Assembly: GCF_003572205.1 (NCBI RefSeq)
Contig: NZ_QXNY01000004.1
Coordinates: 558,548-622,547, forward strand
Source: Algihabitans albus
GTDB lineage: Bacteria; Pseudomonadota; Alphaproteobacteria; Kiloniellales; DSM-21159
DNA: 64,000 bases
Direction of reading: 5' to 3'
The notes beneath the pieces are model-generated. The model was not told where the DNA came from and did no database searches. It saw only the letters and a program-made list of their open reading frames with translations. Shown here one piece after another: positions 19,892 to 57,083 of this stretch; the first letter of the stretch is position 1, and the number at the start of each line of letters is the position of its first letter. Made by a program: the position numbers and the translations under genes.

Positions 19892-20368
19892 ATGGCACGG
19901 CAGGAAGAGCAGACGGAACCGCGGAGGCCCGACCTCATGAGCATGGCGCTGGAAGAGGCCCGTGCCGCCGCTCTTGCCGGCGAGGTGCCGGTCGGCGCAG
20001 TGCTGGCGGATGCCCGGGGACAGGTCCTGGCGCGCGCACACAATCTGGTCGAGCGCCTCCAGGATCCCACCGCTCATGCCGAGCTGCTGGCGATCCGGGA
20101 TGCCGCTCAGCGTCTCGGTAGCAAGCGGCTGGAGGACGCGGAGCTCTACGTGACTCTGGAACCCTGCGCGATGTGTGCACAGGCGATCGCCTTCGCCCGC
20201 CTGCGTCGGGTCGTTTTCGGCGCCTACGACCCCAAGGGAGGCGGCGTCGACCACGGCGCGCGCATCTTCGAACAGCCGACCACCAACCATCGGCCCGAGG
20301 TGGTCGGCGGGTTTCGCGAAAGCGACTGCGCCGCGCTGCTGACGACCTTCTTTCGCCTACGCCGCTGA
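19892..20368 (+). CDS. tadA: tRNA-specific adenosine deaminase TadA
   Basis: Zinc deaminase converting A34 to inosine in tRNA-Arg(ACG), an essential step. The 158-aa protein has the zinc and catalytic motifs TAHAEL (His ligand and catalytic Glu) and EPCAMCAQA (two Cys ligands). Also present are VPVGAVLA near the N terminus and VFGAYDPKGGGVDHG, typical of TadA. The N terminus has an extra 15 residues before MSMALEEA, which is an alternative start. It is divergent from the DUF3775 gene. Confidence 0.93.
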   Translation: MARQEEQTEPRRPDLMSMALEEARAAALAGEVPVGAVLADARGQVLARAHNLVERLQDPTAHAELLAIRDAAQRLGSKRLEDAELYVTLEPCAMCAQAIAFARLRRVVFGAYDPKGGGVDHGARIFEQPTTNHRPEVVGGFRESDCAALLTTFFRLRR

Positions 20369-20423: not shown

Positions 20424-22133
20424 TCAGCCCGCCAGGGCTAACGGTGCGTCCGCTCCGCCGCTGCGGAGTCCGCGAAAGAACCGACCGGTTGGCCGGTCGC
20501 TCCTCATCAGCTCCTCGGGTTTGCCGCTCTCGATCAGCCGGCCGCCCTCCAGATACCAGATTCGATCCATCTGGGCCGCAACCGACCGGCTGTGGGTTGC
20601 CACCAGCACCGTTGCACCGCTGTTGCGCAGCAGATCCGCGACCTGCGCCTCGCCGCCGCCATCCAAGCCGGATTCCGGTTCGTCGAGCAGCAGCAGCCCC
20701 GCCTTGGAGAGCGCCGCGCGGGCCAGGACCACGCGGCGGGCCTCGCCGATGGAGAGGTTGCGGCCGCCTTCGGCAAGCGTACCGCCCAGGCCGCCGATCC
20801 GCTCGATCACGCCGGCCAGTCCGAAGGTCTCCGCCGTGCCCAGGATTTCGGCGTCGTCCGGCCGGGCGCCCAGGCCCATGGTCAGGGCGCGGCGCAAACT
20901 GCCGGCCAGGATCGGGGCACGCGAACTGACCAGGGAAATCGCCCGGCGGCGTGCGCTTGCGCTCAGGTTCGACAGCAGCCAGTCGCCGAGACGCACCTTG
21001 CCCTTGTTGCAGTCTTCAAGGCCGGCGGCGAGCTGCAGCAGGGTGGACTTGCCGGAGCCGTTGCCGCCGACGATGGCAATCTTCTCGCCGGCCGCCGCCG
21101 TGGCGGTGAAGTCCTCGAGGACGCCCGCCGAGACTTTCGAGAAGCGGAGGGCATGCGGTCCCGCCAAGTCCTCGCGCGATACCGTGCGCGGCTTGCGGCG
21201 CAGGCGCGGACGCGCCAACAGTGCCTCGCACTTATCCCGTGCGGCGACCCAGGCCCTGCGGCGATCCCAAACGCCGGCCAGATCGCGCATCGGCTGGAGC
21301 ATCAGCCCGACGGCTGCCAGTCCGGCGGCGGCTTCGGCCGGTGCCATGCCTCTGGTCAGTGCGACCAGCAAGATACTTGCGGCGGTAAAGCCGGCGACGG
21401 CGTCGGGGATCGCCCGCAACAGCTCGGCGACCCGGGTTCGCGCGACGGAGGATTCGATCAACTTCTCGCTGCGGCGCTGCAGGTGATCCCGTTCGATATC
21501 CATACGGCCCAGCAGGCGAAGCTCGGGCGCGTGCGGGATGCGTTCGCTCATATCGGCGGCCAGACGCGCGCGGCGCGCGCGCAGCCGGCGATGCATGCGG
21601 CCCAGCGGCAGCCCCGCGAGCGCCATCAGGAGCAGCCCGACACCGACCGGAATCGCGGCTGCGTAGGCTAGGGTGGGGTTCAGCAGATACAGAATGGCAC
21701 CTCCGGCGGGCAAGACGATACCGGCAGAGATCAAACGTCCGATCCCTCGGCTGACCCAGTTGCGAACCGCGGCAAGGTCGCCGACGAAGCGCATGGAGAG
21801 GGCGCCGATGCGGCGTTGCGCCACGTCCTTCGACGACATCCGGGTCAGATGCTCGAACAGCTTGATCCGCAGAGCCAGGGCGTAGTCCTGCCCCAGCCGT
21901 TCGGCGACCACCCGCTCCGCCACGCGCAGGAGCGCAATGGCGCAGCCGGCGCCCGCGATCAATAGCAACGGCTGGAGCGGAAAGACCTCCGACGAGGCCC
22001 GGAAGGCGGCAAAGACATCGCGCGTCGAGAAGGCGGCGATGCCCGCCGCGGTGGCCTGGCCCAAGGCCAGGGCCGCGACGAGCAGAATCCTGAGCCGGCG
22101 ACCGCCCGCTAGGAGTGGCGGGAGCCTATTCAT
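20424..22133 (-). CDS. ABC exporter half-transporter (fused permease-ATPase), last gene of an uncharacterised operon
   Basis: A 569-aa half-transporter that should work as a homodimer. Membrane helices occupy about residues 15-300 and the nucleotide-binding domain about residues 330-545. Walker A is GGNGSGKST (356-364), the signature is shortened to LSIGE (460-464), Walker B is LLLLDEP (480-486), the D-loop is SGLD and the H-loop His is 514. The Q-loop position appears to hold Ser404 instead of Gln, which is unusual. The fold is nearest the CydC/MsbA type, but the CydD partner is absent. Its ATG overlaps the NTPase stop, so it belongs to the five-gene operon at 20424-25343. It may export the product or move a modified molecule; the substrate is unknown. 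Confidence 0.85.
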   Translation of the reverse strand: MNRLPPLLAGGRRLRILLVAALALGQATAAGIAAFSTRDVFAAFRASSEVFPLQPLLLIAGAGCAIALLRVAERVVAERLGQDYALALRIKLFEHLTRMSSKDVAQRRIGALSMRFVGDLAAVRNWVSRGIGRLISAGIVLPAGGAILYLLNPTLAYAAAIPVGVGLLLMALAGLPLGRMHRRLRARRARLAADMSERIPHAPELRLLGRMDIERDHLQRRSEKLIESSVARTRVAELLRAIPDAVAGFTAASILLVALTRGMAPAEAAAGLAAVGLMLQPMRDLAGVWDRRRAWVAARDKCEALLARPRLRRKPRTVSREDLAGPHALRFSKVSAGVLEDFTATAAAGEKIAIVGGNGSGKSTLLQLAAGLEDCNKGKVRLGDWLLSNLSASARRRAISLVSSRAPILAGSLRRALTMGLGARPDDAEILGTAETFGLAGVIERIGGLGGTLAEGGRNLSIGEARRVVLARAALSKAGLLLLDEPESGLDGGGEAQVADLLRNSGATVLVATHSRSVAAQMDRIWYLEGGRLIESGKPEELMRSDRPTGRFFRGLRSGGADAPLALAG

Positions 22134-23200
22134 GCCGCCGCCTCGCAGAGCGGTGCGGCCGATGCTGCACTGGCGAGCAGCGCATTGGCCTTGGCCGGGT
22201 CGCAGAGAGCGTCGCGCGTCCAGATGGGCAGGCCGGTCATGGCTTCGGCCTCGGCCGACGCCAGCGGCGATTGGCTGACGACGCCGGTGATGGCCAGCGG
22301 CTCGATACCGATCTCGCTCAGAGTCGTGCTGCCGCCGACCGCCGACAGGGCGTCGGGAACAGCGAAGAGGAAGCTCGGAACCTCACTGCGCACGTAGTCG
22401 CTGCGCAGCAGTGCTGCCGTCTCGCTCTGCAGGATGCCGTCCGCGAACTCGACGATCACCACATCGCAATGGGCCTGTCCGGCCAGCCCGAGTAAAAGCT
22501 CCAGCGCCGTTTCGATCTGCTTCACCGGCTGCCGGTACGTCGAGACCATGCCCGCATCGACGAAGTCGCAGACGAAGTGCGCGCCGGAGTCGATATAGGC
22601 GTTGTAGTCTCCGAAGGCTGCCGTGCCGGTGATTTTGATGACGCCAACCCGGTGGCCGGCCCGCCGCAATCCATTGGCCAAAGCCGCTGCTGCTGTGGTT
22701 TTGCCGGAGTTCATCGAGGCGCCGACGAGGCCGATCGTTGTCGGCCGCCTGCTGGGTCGGGCAGATGCTTCGGCGTAGGATGACAGGTTGACGATCTGAC
22801 CGTTGGCATCCGTCAGCAGGCCGATCGGAACGACGCTCGTGGGCTGGCCGATTCGGCCGTTTTTCTGCCGCATCTGACCGAGCACGCCGCCGCTGGCGAG
22901 CAAGTCCGAGGACTGCCGGTTGAGCCGGGCGATGCCTTCGAATTGGTCCGGCGCGTAACGGTCGCCGCAGGCGACGACCACCAGGTCGTCCGGGTAGAGC
23001 TCCGAACCGCGTCCGGAGGTCAGCTGCAGGCGCTTGTGAGAGCCGATCTGCTCGACTCGGCCAAGGACCAGGTCGCCGGACCTCGCCTCTTCGATCCGGT
23101 CATTGATGCCGACGATATCGCTCTGCTGCACGCGGCGGGTCGAGAAGGCCCATTTGGCGCCGGCGAGGGAGGCTGTGAAAGGGGTGCGGTAGCTGGTCAT
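22130..23200 (-). CDS. P-loop NTPase with N-terminal beta-rich domain, unknown function
   Basis: A 356-aa soluble protein. The N-terminal 140 residues look beta-rich (SGDLVLGRVEQIG, LYPDDLVVVACGDRYAP). The C-terminal half is a P-loop domain with GASMNSGKTT (160-169), a VGVIKITG strand (about 185-192) and VVIVEFADGILQSE (about 247-260). That pattern resembles the SIMIBI-class folds of BioD, MobB and DUF1611 proteins, not a motor ATPase. I do not recognise a family. The start is the ATG at 23200, 25 bases after the hydrolase stop; its end overlaps the ABC exporter start by ATGA. In context it may activate or phosphorylate a substrate made by the neighbouring enzymes. Confidence 0.75.
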   Translation of the reverse strand: MTSYRTPFTASLAGAKWAFSTRRVQQSDIVGINDRIEEARSGDLVLGRVEQIGSHKRLQLTSGRGSELYPDDLVVVACGDRYAPDQFEGIARLNRQSSDLLASGGVLGQMRQKNGRIGQPTSVVPIGLLTDANGQIVNLSSYAEASARPSRRPTTIGLVGASMNSGKTTAAAALANGLRRAGHRVGVIKITGTAAFGDYNAYIDSGAHFVCDFVDAGMVSTYRQPVKQIETALELLLGLAGQAHCDVVIVEFADGILQSETAALLRSDYVRSEVPSFLFAVPDALSAVGGSTTLSEIGIEPLAITGVVSQSPLASAEAEAMTGLPIWTRDALCDPAKANALLASAASAAPLCEAAA

Positions 23201-23225
23201 GGGAAAAACTCCTTTGGTGCGGCGC

Positions 23226-24053
23226 TCAGGCCTTGGCGATTTTGCTGTTTGCGGTGCCGATATCGTCGGAATCGGGCAGCACCAGATGGGTCAGCTCGCT
23301 CCGCGTGATGCAGTCGCTGAAGTGATGGGTACAGCCGGGCAGAACCTGCAGGCTGACGTCTGGACGAAGGCCTCGTGCCTTGGCCGCTTCTTGAATGGCG
23401 CGGCTCCAGCGCTTGGCCCGAGTCAGACGATCCAGCCCTTGTTGCCGATCGATCTCCGGGCCGCTGCGCGTGTTGTCGTCCGGTTGGCTATCGTGTTCGC
23501 CGACGTAGATCCGAATCGGCAGACGCAGGAAGCGCTCCAAGCCAGCCTCCATCCGAGGGCCCCAGTCGTCACGCTTGTCCTGACGCGCGGCTAAGCCGAG
23601 AGGAAACTCGGTCGCATCGGGGAAGGTGTACCAACCCGCCGCGCCCACGATCAGACGCTTGACAAGATGGGGGTAGAGCATCGCGAAGCGGTGTGAGAAC
23701 TGTGCGCCGCCGGAATGCCCGAAAAGGTCGAACTGCGAGGTCTGCCAGATGCCTTCCATCCGCAGCTCTTCCAGGAGTGCCAGGAGTGCCAGGTCCGCGC
23801 GTCCCTTGCGGACAAGCTGCTGATAATGCGGCCAGGTCTCCCGGTCGAAAAGCGGTGCGATCAGCGGTCGGCCCAGGGCTTCGGCCCGCCGGCGCAACCT
23901 CGAGGCTTTTTCGTAGGCGCCGCGTTGGATGCCGTGGACGGCGATCAGCGGCACGGCGTCCGGCGCGACGGAGTTGGGCAGGACCATCCAGCAGGACAGG
24001 CCGCGGCGGCCGCGTGCCGGTCTGTGAACCAGTGCCGACTTTTTGCTTCGCAT
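23226..24053 (-). CDS. Alpha/beta hydrolase, unknown substrate
   Basis: A 275-aa alpha/beta-hydrolase. The oxyanion region PLIAVHGIQRGAY (about 35-47), nucleophile elbow LFGHSGGAQ with Ser114, acid Asp188 (YVGEHDSQ) and base His243/244 (GCTHHFSD) form a complete catalytic triad. I start it at 24053, where GGAGG lies six bases upstream. An ATG at 24086 would overlap the preceding stop by ATGA and add eleven residues but has a weaker ribosome site. There is no signal peptide, so it acts in the cytoplasm. Between the hydroxylase and NTPase genes, it may release or transfer an ester-linked intermediate; that is a guess. Confidence 0.8.
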   Translation of the reverse strand: MRSKKSALVHRPARGRRGLSCWMVLPNSVAPDAVPLIAVHGIQRGAYEKASRLRRRAEALGRPLIAPLFDRETWPHYQQLVRKGRADLALLALLEELRMEGIWQTSQFDLFGHSGGAQFSHRFAMLYPHLVKRLIVGAAGWYTFPDATEFPLGLAARQDKRDDWGPRMEAGLERFLRLPIRIYVGEHDSQPDDNTRSGPEIDRQQGLDRLTRAKRWSRAIQEAAKARGLRPDVSLQVLPGCTHHFSDCITRSELTHLVLPDSDDIGTANSKIAKA

Positions 24054-24082
24054 TGGAACCTCCAGGTGGTGCAGCAGCGCAG

Positions 24083-24673
24083 TCATGACTGAGCTTTCTG
24101 CGCGGCTTTGGCGCCGCCGATCTCGGCTTCGAGGTGGCGCGGCAGGAGGTCGAAGATCATGTGGATGCGATCTTCGTCGCTGTCGTTGACGGCCTCGTGC
24201 TCTTGCTTGTTGTCGAACCACCAGAGTTCGCCTTCGCGCATGCGCACGGACTCGTCGCCGGCACGGAGGAAAGAGCCCTGGGTCGAACGCAGCACCAGGT
24301 GGTAGCGGTCGCGCAGCAGGTAGTAGAGACCGCGGTCGATGTGCGGGTAGACCTTGTGGCCCGACGGCAGGCAGACCAGTTTGGCGCGGCTGAGCAGGGC
24401 TTTACGTTCCTTTGCGAAATCCTTGATGAAGCTGCAGGCCAGCGGATAGTGGCGCGAAGACGTTGTCCAACGGCTCTCATGCACGTCGCGTCTGTCACGG
24501 TCTCCGATTGCCGACTTGCGCAGGCCGCGCAGCGGGATCGAGAGTGCCTCGCGCTGAACCTTGATCTTGGATTGGCGCCCCGTCGAGGCGTCCCAGGCAT
24601 TGTCGATCCGGTCGATCTCCTGGAGGAACGGAAGCGGGTCGATTTCCGCCTTGATTCGCTGGAAGTACTTCAT
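24083..24673 (-). CDS. Aspartyl/asparaginyl beta-hydroxylase-like Fe(II)/2-oxoglutarate dioxygenase
   Basis: A 196-aa protein with the compact jelly-roll of the aspartyl/asparaginyl beta-hydroxylase family, which hydroxylates Asp, Asn or His side chains in proteins, peptides or small molecules. Visible metal and substrate motifs are LPSGHKVYPHIDRG (iron ligand His111), the RYHLVL strand, a WWFDNKQEHEAVN block (second iron ligand His159) and DRIHMIFD (2-oxoglutarate region). All core elements seem intact. It starts 31 bases after the lipoprotein gene and leads the enzymatic part of the operon. Substrate cannot be read from sequence; the neighbouring exporter suggests a secreted or lipid-linked product. 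Confidence 0.82.
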   Translation of the reverse strand: MKYFQRIKAEIDPLPFLQEIDRIDNAWDASTGRQSKIKVQREALSIPLRGLRKSAIGDRDRRDVHESRWTTSSRHYPLACSFIKDFAKERKALLSRAKLVCLPSGHKVYPHIDRGLYYLLRDRYHLVLRSTQGSFLRAGDESVRMREGELWWFDNKQEHEAVNDSDEDRIHMIFDLLPRHLEAEIGGAKAAQKAQS

Positions 24674-24704
24674 GGTCGCGGTCCTTCTTTTTTACTTGGT
24701 AGAT

Positions 24705-25343
24705 TCAGTCTTTGCGGATCCAGGACTCTTCGAGGCCCCGGCTGTCGGAGACTTGCGTGAAGGCGACCGGGCCTTCGCCGGGCGCGTACCAGGTCGTGCG
24801 GACCCGCTTGCTGTCGTCGCATTTGACGACGTAGGCGGGCGTGTCGGGCAGACCCGGACGGATGACATCGACCGCGCCGGTCACCTTGCAGACCGTTTCA
24901 CGCGTACGGCTGCGACCCGTATGGGATGTCGCTTCGCGCCGGTATCGGCCTTCACTGCCGACCCGCAGGGGGTAGAGCGAGTCCAGCTGGCGCACTTGCG
25001 CCTGGCCGGCATTCCAGTTCTTCGAGGTGCCGCAGTTGGCCCAGCTGTCGGACGGCGAAAACCAGTCGTTGTTCCGGGTCCAGACGCAGCCATCGTCCTG
25101 GCGCACGCGGACGCCGTTCCCGTAGGACTGGACATCGTAGCTGCGGTTGCGGCCGTCGATCAGGCTGGTCGTCTGGAAATCGCCGAAGCTCTCCGGACCC
25201 TGCACGATCGGCAGCTCGGAGGAGACCTGGGCCGTTTGCGGCCGGTTGGTTTCAAACACCGAACCGATCGAGTTCAGGATTTGCGTGCCGTCGGAAACGC
25301 AACCGGTCAGCAGTACGACGACGCCTACGGAAAGATATTTCAT
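24705..25343 (-). CDS. Putative lipoprotein, first gene of the uncharacterised operon
   Basis: A 212-aa protein with a short signal peptide and lipobox LLTGC (lipidated Cys15), so probably an inner- or outer-membrane lipoprotein facing the periplasm. The mature part has four further cysteines (DGCVW, ANCGTS, TVCKVT, VKCDDS) and a tail ending with VSDSRGLEESWIRKD. I know no family for it. GAGGA lies nine bases before the ATG at 25343. Four genes follow on the same strand with gaps of at most about 30 bases (hydroxylase, hydrolase, NTPase, ABC exporter). A role as a periplasmic acceptor, or as the target of the hydroxylase, is possible but unproven. Confidence 0.7.
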   Translation of the reverse strand: MKYLSVGVVVLLTGCVSDGTQILNSIGSVFETNRPQTAQVSSELPIVQGPESFGDFQTTSLIDGRNRSYDVQSYGNGVRVRQDDGCVWTRNNDWFSPSDSWANCGTSKNWNAGQAQVRQLDSLYPLRVGSEGRYRREATSHTGRSRTRETVCKVTGAVDVIRPGLPDTPAYVVKCDDSKRVRTTWYAPGEGPVAFTQVSDSRGLEESWIRKD

Positions 25344-25574: not shown

Positions 25575-25781
25575 ATGAACGAAGACGAGTTCAACATGCA
25601 GGTGCGCAAGTTCCTCAAGGAAGTCGGCGTCACGTCCCAGCGCGAGATCGAAAAGGCGGTGCGCGAGGCTCTAGAGGCGGGCAAGCTGGACCCGAACGGC
25701 AGCGTCAAGGCCAGCGTTCTGCTGAAGCTCGAAGACCTCGGTGTCGAACACACGGTCGAGCACAGCATCAAGCTGAGCTAG
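25575..25781 (+). CDS. DUF6494 family small protein
   Basis: A 68-aa soluble protein that I recognise as the DUF6494 type from MNEDEFNMQVRKFLKEVGV and TSQREIEKAVREALEAG. Helical N-terminal half, then a beta-hairpin-like end (KASVLLKLEDLGVEH... IKL). Function unknown. The last four bases overlap the end of the convergent GlxA regulator gene. Confidence 0.85.
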   Translation: MNEDEFNMQVRKFLKEVGVTSQREIEKAVREALEAGKLDPNGSVKASVLLKLEDLGVEHTVEHSIKLS

Positions 25782-56769: not shown

Positions 56770-56847
56770 CTGGCATCTCCTCCCGGCCGAACGGAAGGAA
56801 GGGTGCCGACCCTCTGCCCGGAGCGCTTCCGAGGCGATGCCGACCGT

Positions 56848-56960
56848 CCTTTCCCTGCGCCGGCATGATCCGGATCAGGTTCGAAGGGTCACCGCCTTGC
56901 CGGACGGTATCTCAGCCCCCGGGCCGGCCGCGACCGCGACCGGCAGGGACACCCCTAGGA
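56848..56960 (-). promoter_or_regulatory. TPP riboswitch (THI element)
   Basis: On the minus strand the sequence reads through the canonical THI-box parts: GGGGTGTCCCTGCCGG, then CTGAGAtaccg, then gacCCTTCGAACCTGATCCGG and ATCATGCCGGCGCAGGGA. CTGAGA and the GAACCTGATC...GCCGGCGCAGGGA block are the TPP-binding signature, and the P1 arms GGGGTGTCCCT and AGGGA are positioned to pair. It lies about 80 bases upstream of the ThiY-like start codon and should turn the gene off when thiamine pyrophosphate is plentiful. I infer translation or early transcription control; no expression platform is obvious. Confidence 0.93.
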
Positions 56961-57083
56961 ACGTCGGAATCAGAATAACCGTCCCGCGCCGTCTTGCAAT
57001 GCTTCGTGAAAGAGGCTTGGCGGATAAGTGTCATGGAGTTTTGCATCTGTGCGATTGCGAAGCCCTGTGCTATCCCCCGCGCC

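Follow-up and report, generated by a model that had tools for sequence, protein, structure and literature searches.

A conserved, patchily distributed operon of Algihabitans albus built on a P-loop enzyme and an ABC exporter: a possible cassette for an acidic amino-acid-derived molecule

What could a lipoprotein, a beta-hydroxylase, an alpha/beta hydrolase, a P-loop enzyme and an ABC exporter be doing together in a single operon of Algihabitans albus? The operon occupies positions 20424–25343, on the minus strand, of the window analysed here, a stretch of 64,000 nucleotides (positions 558,548–622,547 of contig NZ_QXNY01000004.1; part of G000:C4, in a genome of 4.68 Mb). Our comparison of this locus with those of related bacteria shows that the five genes form one unit: the P-loop enzyme and the exporter are its core, and a two-component system, the hydrolase, the hydroxylase and the lipoprotein are added to that core in a nested manner. 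We judge it quite probable that this conserved unit modifies and exports a small molecule; the whole scheme, that of a conserved, patchily distributed cassette that makes a small molecule from an acidic amino acid and exports it, is more tentative, and we give it somewhat less than an even chance.

The five genes are complete and run head to tail, in the order LP-HYD-ABH-NTP-ABC from 5′ to 3′ of the operon:

24705–25343, minus strand: LP, a lipoprotein of 212 aa with the lipobox LTGC, which matches no known family
24083–24673, minus strand: HYD, a soluble Asp/Asn-type Fe(II)/2-oxoglutarate beta-hydroxylase of 196 aa, catalytic domain only (PF05118, E 6.5e-19)
23226–24053, minus strand: ABH, an alpha/beta hydrolase of 275 aa, of the LpqC / poly(Asp) hydrolase-1 family by profile matches to Protein Data Bank (PDB) entries
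22130–23200, minus strand: NTP, a two-domain P-loop enzyme of 356 aa with the P-loop GASMNSGKTT
20424–22133, minus strand: ABC, a half-size exporter of 569 aa with a transmembrane and an ATPase domain, CydC/CydD-like

Neighbouring genes are separated by 31 nt (LP/HYD), 29 nt (HYD/ABH) and 25 nt (ABH/NTP), NTP and ABC share an ATGA overlap, and a GGAGG ribosome site precedes the ATG of ABH at 24053. The open reading frames thus bear out the preliminary description of this DNA, made from the sequence alone, which had reported five minus-strand genes with short gaps or ATGA overlaps. A scan for a sigma-70-type promoter and a terminator gave nothing above chance.

Homologues were surveyed in 58 relatives, with a cut-off of E < 1e-60 for NTP. 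This recovered NTP at 26 loci in 23 genomes of the order, and ABC adjoins NTP at 24 of the 26. The complete five-gene order is kept in 11 genomes: that of the window, a congener (G002; 79–86% protein identity) and nine genomes of family f4 (53–75%). A second arrangement, NTP-ABC-HYD-ABH, occurs in five more genomes of the order and in one outside it (G335), and there are reduced clusters as well, consisting of NTP-ABC-ABH or of NTP-ABC only. HYD is always accompanied by ABH (18 loci); LP is confined to HYD-carrying genomes (13/13); among the 61 genomes of the order, relatives of LP were found in 13, each of which also has NTP. The inter-protein distances of the operon products correlate with one another (r 0.85–0.94, with no permutation as high), a correlation to which shared host descent contributes. 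The linkage kept in two gene orders and the correlated distances uphold the earlier proposals of a functionally coupled unit and of a modification-and-export cassette; scattering of the genes across related genomes, which would have spoken against both, was not seen for NTP, ABC, ABH or HYD.

The cassette is nevertheless accessory, because the complete congener G001 lacks NTP and LP. The AraC gene that flanks the operon has no match in G001 either, so that no empty-site comparison could be made. The closest named relative is a Rhodovibrionaceae metagenome-assembled genome, whose NTP is 82% identical, and a peptide-pattern scan of the genome collection returned two loci only. In genus g7, further HYD sequences lie upstream of NTP: a full-length second copy in which the second iron-ligand His is replaced by Gln (L023:7526-8098), and two fragments that look as if they were decaying (L020:8281-8409 and L022:5123-5353).

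Many relatives also carry a regulator. In 17 clusters, from families f4 and f5 and several more, the gene after ABC encodes a histidine kinase, accompanied by a response regulator gene wherever the contig continues. This two-component system probably responds to a cue from the envelope and regulates the unit. The window operon is without it. In the NTP tree, the window pair is nested in the kinase-linked clade, which makes it most likely that the ancestor possessed the regulator and that the window lineage has lost it; in the window's genome a full-length kinase orthologue was not found, the matches being to the kinase domain only. Other genes follow the core in clusters that have no two-component system: porin genes (Porin_O_P and Porin_4) lie directly 3′ of NTP-ABC at L063:5558-6757 and L059:6103-7167, and at L018:8742-13201 a divergent NTP is followed by a different ABC exporter and then by an HlyD-type membrane fusion protein. 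A porin or an HlyD-type protein in this position would fit a compound that leaves the cell.

What chemistry might the core enzyme perform? The AlphaFold model of NTP (mean pLDDT 90.6) comprises a beta-rich N-terminal domain (residues ~1–150) and a P-loop domain (150–348) that resembles dethiobiotin synthetase. In comparisons of this predicted structure, the P-loop domain aligns with dethiobiotin synthetase 3of5 (Z 16.7, rmsd 2.8, 177 residues), with the DUF1611 protein 2g0t (Z 16.0, rmsd 3.9, 175 residues) and with CTP synthase (Z 15.9, rmsd 3.4, 191 residues), and in a sequence profile the P-loop and the following Lys align with those of dethiobiotin synthetase 3fgn. The P-loop, K189 and E251 are conserved in the NTP alignment. 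The predicted fold and the conserved Lys place NTP in the dethiobiotin synthetase-like P-loop superfamily, so that of the two proteins for which structure prediction had been proposed, NTP gave a recognizable domain; LP (mean pLDDT 67) gave no trustworthy fold match (best Foldseek E 0.018), nor did a PDB sequence-profile search with it.

NTP is similar to these enzymes in its P-loop fold (Z 15–17), and to dethiobiotin synthetase also in its Gly-rich loop and downstream Lys, but it differs from all of them in having an additional beta-rich domain at its N-terminus, which bears an RYA.DQFE-type motif, and no adjoining biotin gene. For the N-terminal domain, which was not searched as a separate model, no match to a solved structure was seen. 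NTP falls below every Pfam and NCBIfam cut-off. We rejected its assignment as BioD proper (AAA_26 at 16.6 of 27 bits; no BioD model among the NCBIfam matches listed; no bio genes among the identified neighbours) and, despite the close P-loop fold, as a DgcN-type DUF1611 protein (PF07755 at 14.2 of 25 bits). In dethiobiotin synthetase and in CTP synthase, ATP serves to activate an oxygen, after which an amine attacks. The DUF1611 member DgcN is said to N-acetylate D-glutamate; no paper on a DUF1611 acetyltransferase was found among the open-access papers searched.

A clue to the substrate comes from distant NTP relatives, recovered by the first profile at E 1e-44 to 1e-46, that lie at the head of arginine operons. 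NTP-argC-argB units are present in family f37, in AT-rich genomes of ~1.4 Mb (L068, L069, L093 and L094; genomes G086, G313, G574 and G631); two genera of family f143 have the longer unit NTP-argC-argB-argD-argF (L070 and L091; G292 and G679). ArgJ is absent from G086, G313 and G292, and no full-length ArgA was found there with TIGR01890, the only model used in the synthase search, whose sole strong match in each is to the kinase part and is the genome's own ArgB. Of 80 genomes in the order of G086, this type of NTP is present in 35 and ArgJ in 33; no genome carries both, and 12 carry neither. Because this split follows two families, we count it as a single replacement, with f143 as a second lineage. 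Their linkage to argC and argB, and their presence where ArgJ and full-length ArgA are absent, mark these distant NTPs as candidate N-acylglutamate-forming enzymes; in two alphaproteobacterial lineages they seem to have taken over from the enzyme that usually opens arginine synthesis. They share with ArgA/ArgJ the head position in arginine operons and a distribution complementary to that of ArgJ, but have an unrelated P-loop fold; the NTP of the window, unlike them, lies outside any arginine operon in a genome that has ArgJ. At one further locus (L095, G645:C1:692000-708000), matches to NTP, argC and argB are fragmented across reading frames, through sequencing error or decay.

Other distant relatives have different partners. 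NTP stands just before an Asparaginase_2 (beta-aspartyl-peptidase-type) gene in two-gene units (L066:3058-5021 and L067:8325-10286), just before a RimK-like ATP-grasp ligase gene at L055, and next to an M20 glutamate-carboxypeptidase-like gene at L071 and L072. All three partner families work on Asp or Glu, on amides of these or on short peptides, and this genomic company suggests that the distant NTP relatives act on acidic amino acids. It is possible, though rather unlikely as a complete proposal, that NTP founds a new ATP-dependent family that N-modifies acidic amino acids, with one branch in arginine synthesis and the window branch making an exported beta-hydroxylated acidic amino-acid or beta-linked Asp-type metabolite, under two-component control in relatives.

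The same genomic contexts bear on a different role for NTP, in which it is regulatory or chaperone-like, as are MobB and MeaB, and loads or gates ABC, the cassette being a stress-induced efflux or detoxification system under the two-component system. NTP does have weak profile matches to MobB and MeaB, and NTP-ABC-kinase clusters without tailoring enzymes exist (L038, L039, L056, L057, L061 and L064). However, the arginine-operon relatives lack a transporter and are placed where an enzyme is missing, and in two genomes NTP accompanies the two-component system with no ABC adjoining it; we consider this explanation unlikely.

The two tailoring enzymes belong to named families. HYD scores 68.7 bits against PF05118 (cut-off 22.6; E 6.5e-19), and its alignment shows the nearly invariant iron ligands H111 and H159 and the 2-oxoglutarate residue R169. 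Its PDB profile matches are to 7v4f (E 5.7e-6), a hydroxylase of the caprazamycin pathway (PMC9814697), to L-proline cis-4-hydroxylase and to AspH; it resembles these in its His/His iron ligands and 2-oxoglutarate Arg, but differs in its short soluble domain, its low similarity and its constant ABH partner. ABH matches the PDB entries 3d0k (E 1.2e-36), 9o7u (7.6e-35) and 6ve6 (8.1e-33), the next family following at 3.5e-4, and this full-length homology, together with the conserved triad S114, D188 and H243, places it in the LpqC / poly(Asp) hydrolase-1 family. Poly(Asp) hydrolase-1 cuts beta-Asp amide bonds (PMC4456602); the ABH of the window differs from these relatives in being, by its sequence, cytoplasmic and without a signal peptide. 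ABH proteins in the clusters of genus g7, G004 and G009 have a signal-like N-terminal segment. Among LP-less clusters, a signal-peptide-like start is seen at L021:5345-6223, L020:12350-13240 and L023:12024-12899, which suggests a periplasmic hydrolase there. The catalytic motifs listed in the preliminary description are therefore largely conserved in the alignments (H111/H159 of HYD, S114/D188/H243 of ABH, the P-loop of NTP); the exception is H244 of ABH.

The hydroxylase also raises the question of a lipid product: NTP and ABH would make an N-acyl amino-acid lipid, HYD would hydroxylate it as OlsC and LpxO do, ABC would flip it as MsbA does, and LP would help its transit through the envelope. 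LpxO (lipid A) and OlsC (ornithine lipid) are indeed the best NCBIfam matches of HYD, and ABC also matches MsbA. The HYD scores are, however, far below cut-off (20.6 of 500 bits for LpxO, 16.1 of 450 for OlsC), and we rejected both assignments; moreover, HYD is a soluble protein of 196 aa, enzymes acting on small polar substrates are among its best-matching solved relatives, and in the conserved partners we saw no gene for an acyl carrier or an acyltransferase. We thus regard a lipid route as improbable.

The C-terminal two thirds of LP are strongly conserved, with the motif GC.WTR..DWF.PSDSW.NCG, and this conservation, like the restriction of LP to genomes with both the NTP and HYD families, would fit a scheme of protein modification in which HYD hydroxylates an Asp or Asn of the DWF.PSDSW.NCG part of LP, with the remaining genes aiding LP in its maturation or secretion. 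Yet G012, G019 and G026 have HYD and no LP anywhere in the genome, LP is missing from the HYD-containing clusters of G204, G335 and G686, G004 and G009 carry LP on its own at a distance from the cluster, and ordinary lipoprotein export needs neither NTP nor ABC, all of which makes this scheme distinctly improbable. The distant location of LP in two genomes, its absence from many clusters and its lack of a match to a known fold also weaken the suggestion, made at the outset, that LP may be a carrier.

The best NCBIfam models for ABC are those of the CydDC thiol exporter, but ABC scores far below their cut-offs (187.7 of 630 bits for CydC, 185.1 of 435 for CydD), is encoded by a single half-transporter gene and has no adjoining cyd genes, and we rejected this identification. 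An exporter found together with tailoring enzymes might instead mature and export a ribosomal peptide or bacteriocin; the gaps of the operon (≤31 nt) leave no room for a precursor gene, and ABC has no peptidase domain match in Pfam, so that this is highly improbable. With no peptide precursor gene found, the "peptide, protein or lipid-linked" product that had been proposed is narrowed, by inference, to a small derivative of an acidic amino acid.

For such a molecule we propose the following route. NTP would use ATP to modify the amino group of an Asp- or Glu-like substrate with an acyl, carboxyl or amino-acyl moiety, or to link the substrate through an amide; HYD would then hydroxylate the beta carbon of the NTP product, a chemistry taken from its family with the substrate presumed; ABH may trim or release part of the product; ABC would carry the product out of the cytoplasm, the direction following from the exporter family and the cargo being presumed; and LP might, at a guess, bind or act on the product in the cell envelope.

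Several points weigh against this acidic amino-acid reading. Its substrate and product are inferred. PF05118 enzymes accept many substrates, and LpqC-family hydrolases are diverse, so that a resemblance to poly(Asp) hydrolase does not have to imply chemistry on Asp. The arginine-type NTPs are only ~22–25% identical to the NTP of the window and may differ from it in substrate; the exclusion of ArgJ and NTP in the order of G086, splitting as it does by family, is one evolutionary event; and the search with a single synthase model does not exclude GNAT-type acetylglutamate synthases genome-wide.

On the ABC side, the operon is flanked by a convergent tadA-like gene that ends at 20368, and upstream by a divergent DUF6494 gene (25575–25781, plus strand, 68 aa), which adjoins the operon in the congener too (88% identity), and an AraC-type regulator. 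Elsewhere in the window, a TPP riboswitch lies at 56834–56966 on the minus strand (Rfam RF00059, 63.3 bits).

In conclusion, a miscellaneous-looking set of genes becomes a defined unit, with an NTP and ABC core, a regulator in relatives and nested tailoring genes; the two-component system of the relatives, the patchy distribution and the distant NTP relatives could not be seen by a reading of the single sequence. Synthesis-and-export cassettes are known, but this gene combination and the NTP family appear new: a description of the operon was not found in the open-access papers searched, nor was a named family for NTP in those papers or in the profile libraries. In two bacterial lineages from which the first enzyme of arginine synthesis is missing, relatives of this P-loop family, nameless in the searched libraries, stand in its position. 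The arginine-linked branch forms a separate lead in its own right, and its chemistry would reveal that of the whole NTP family, thereby narrowing the exported product of the window operon.

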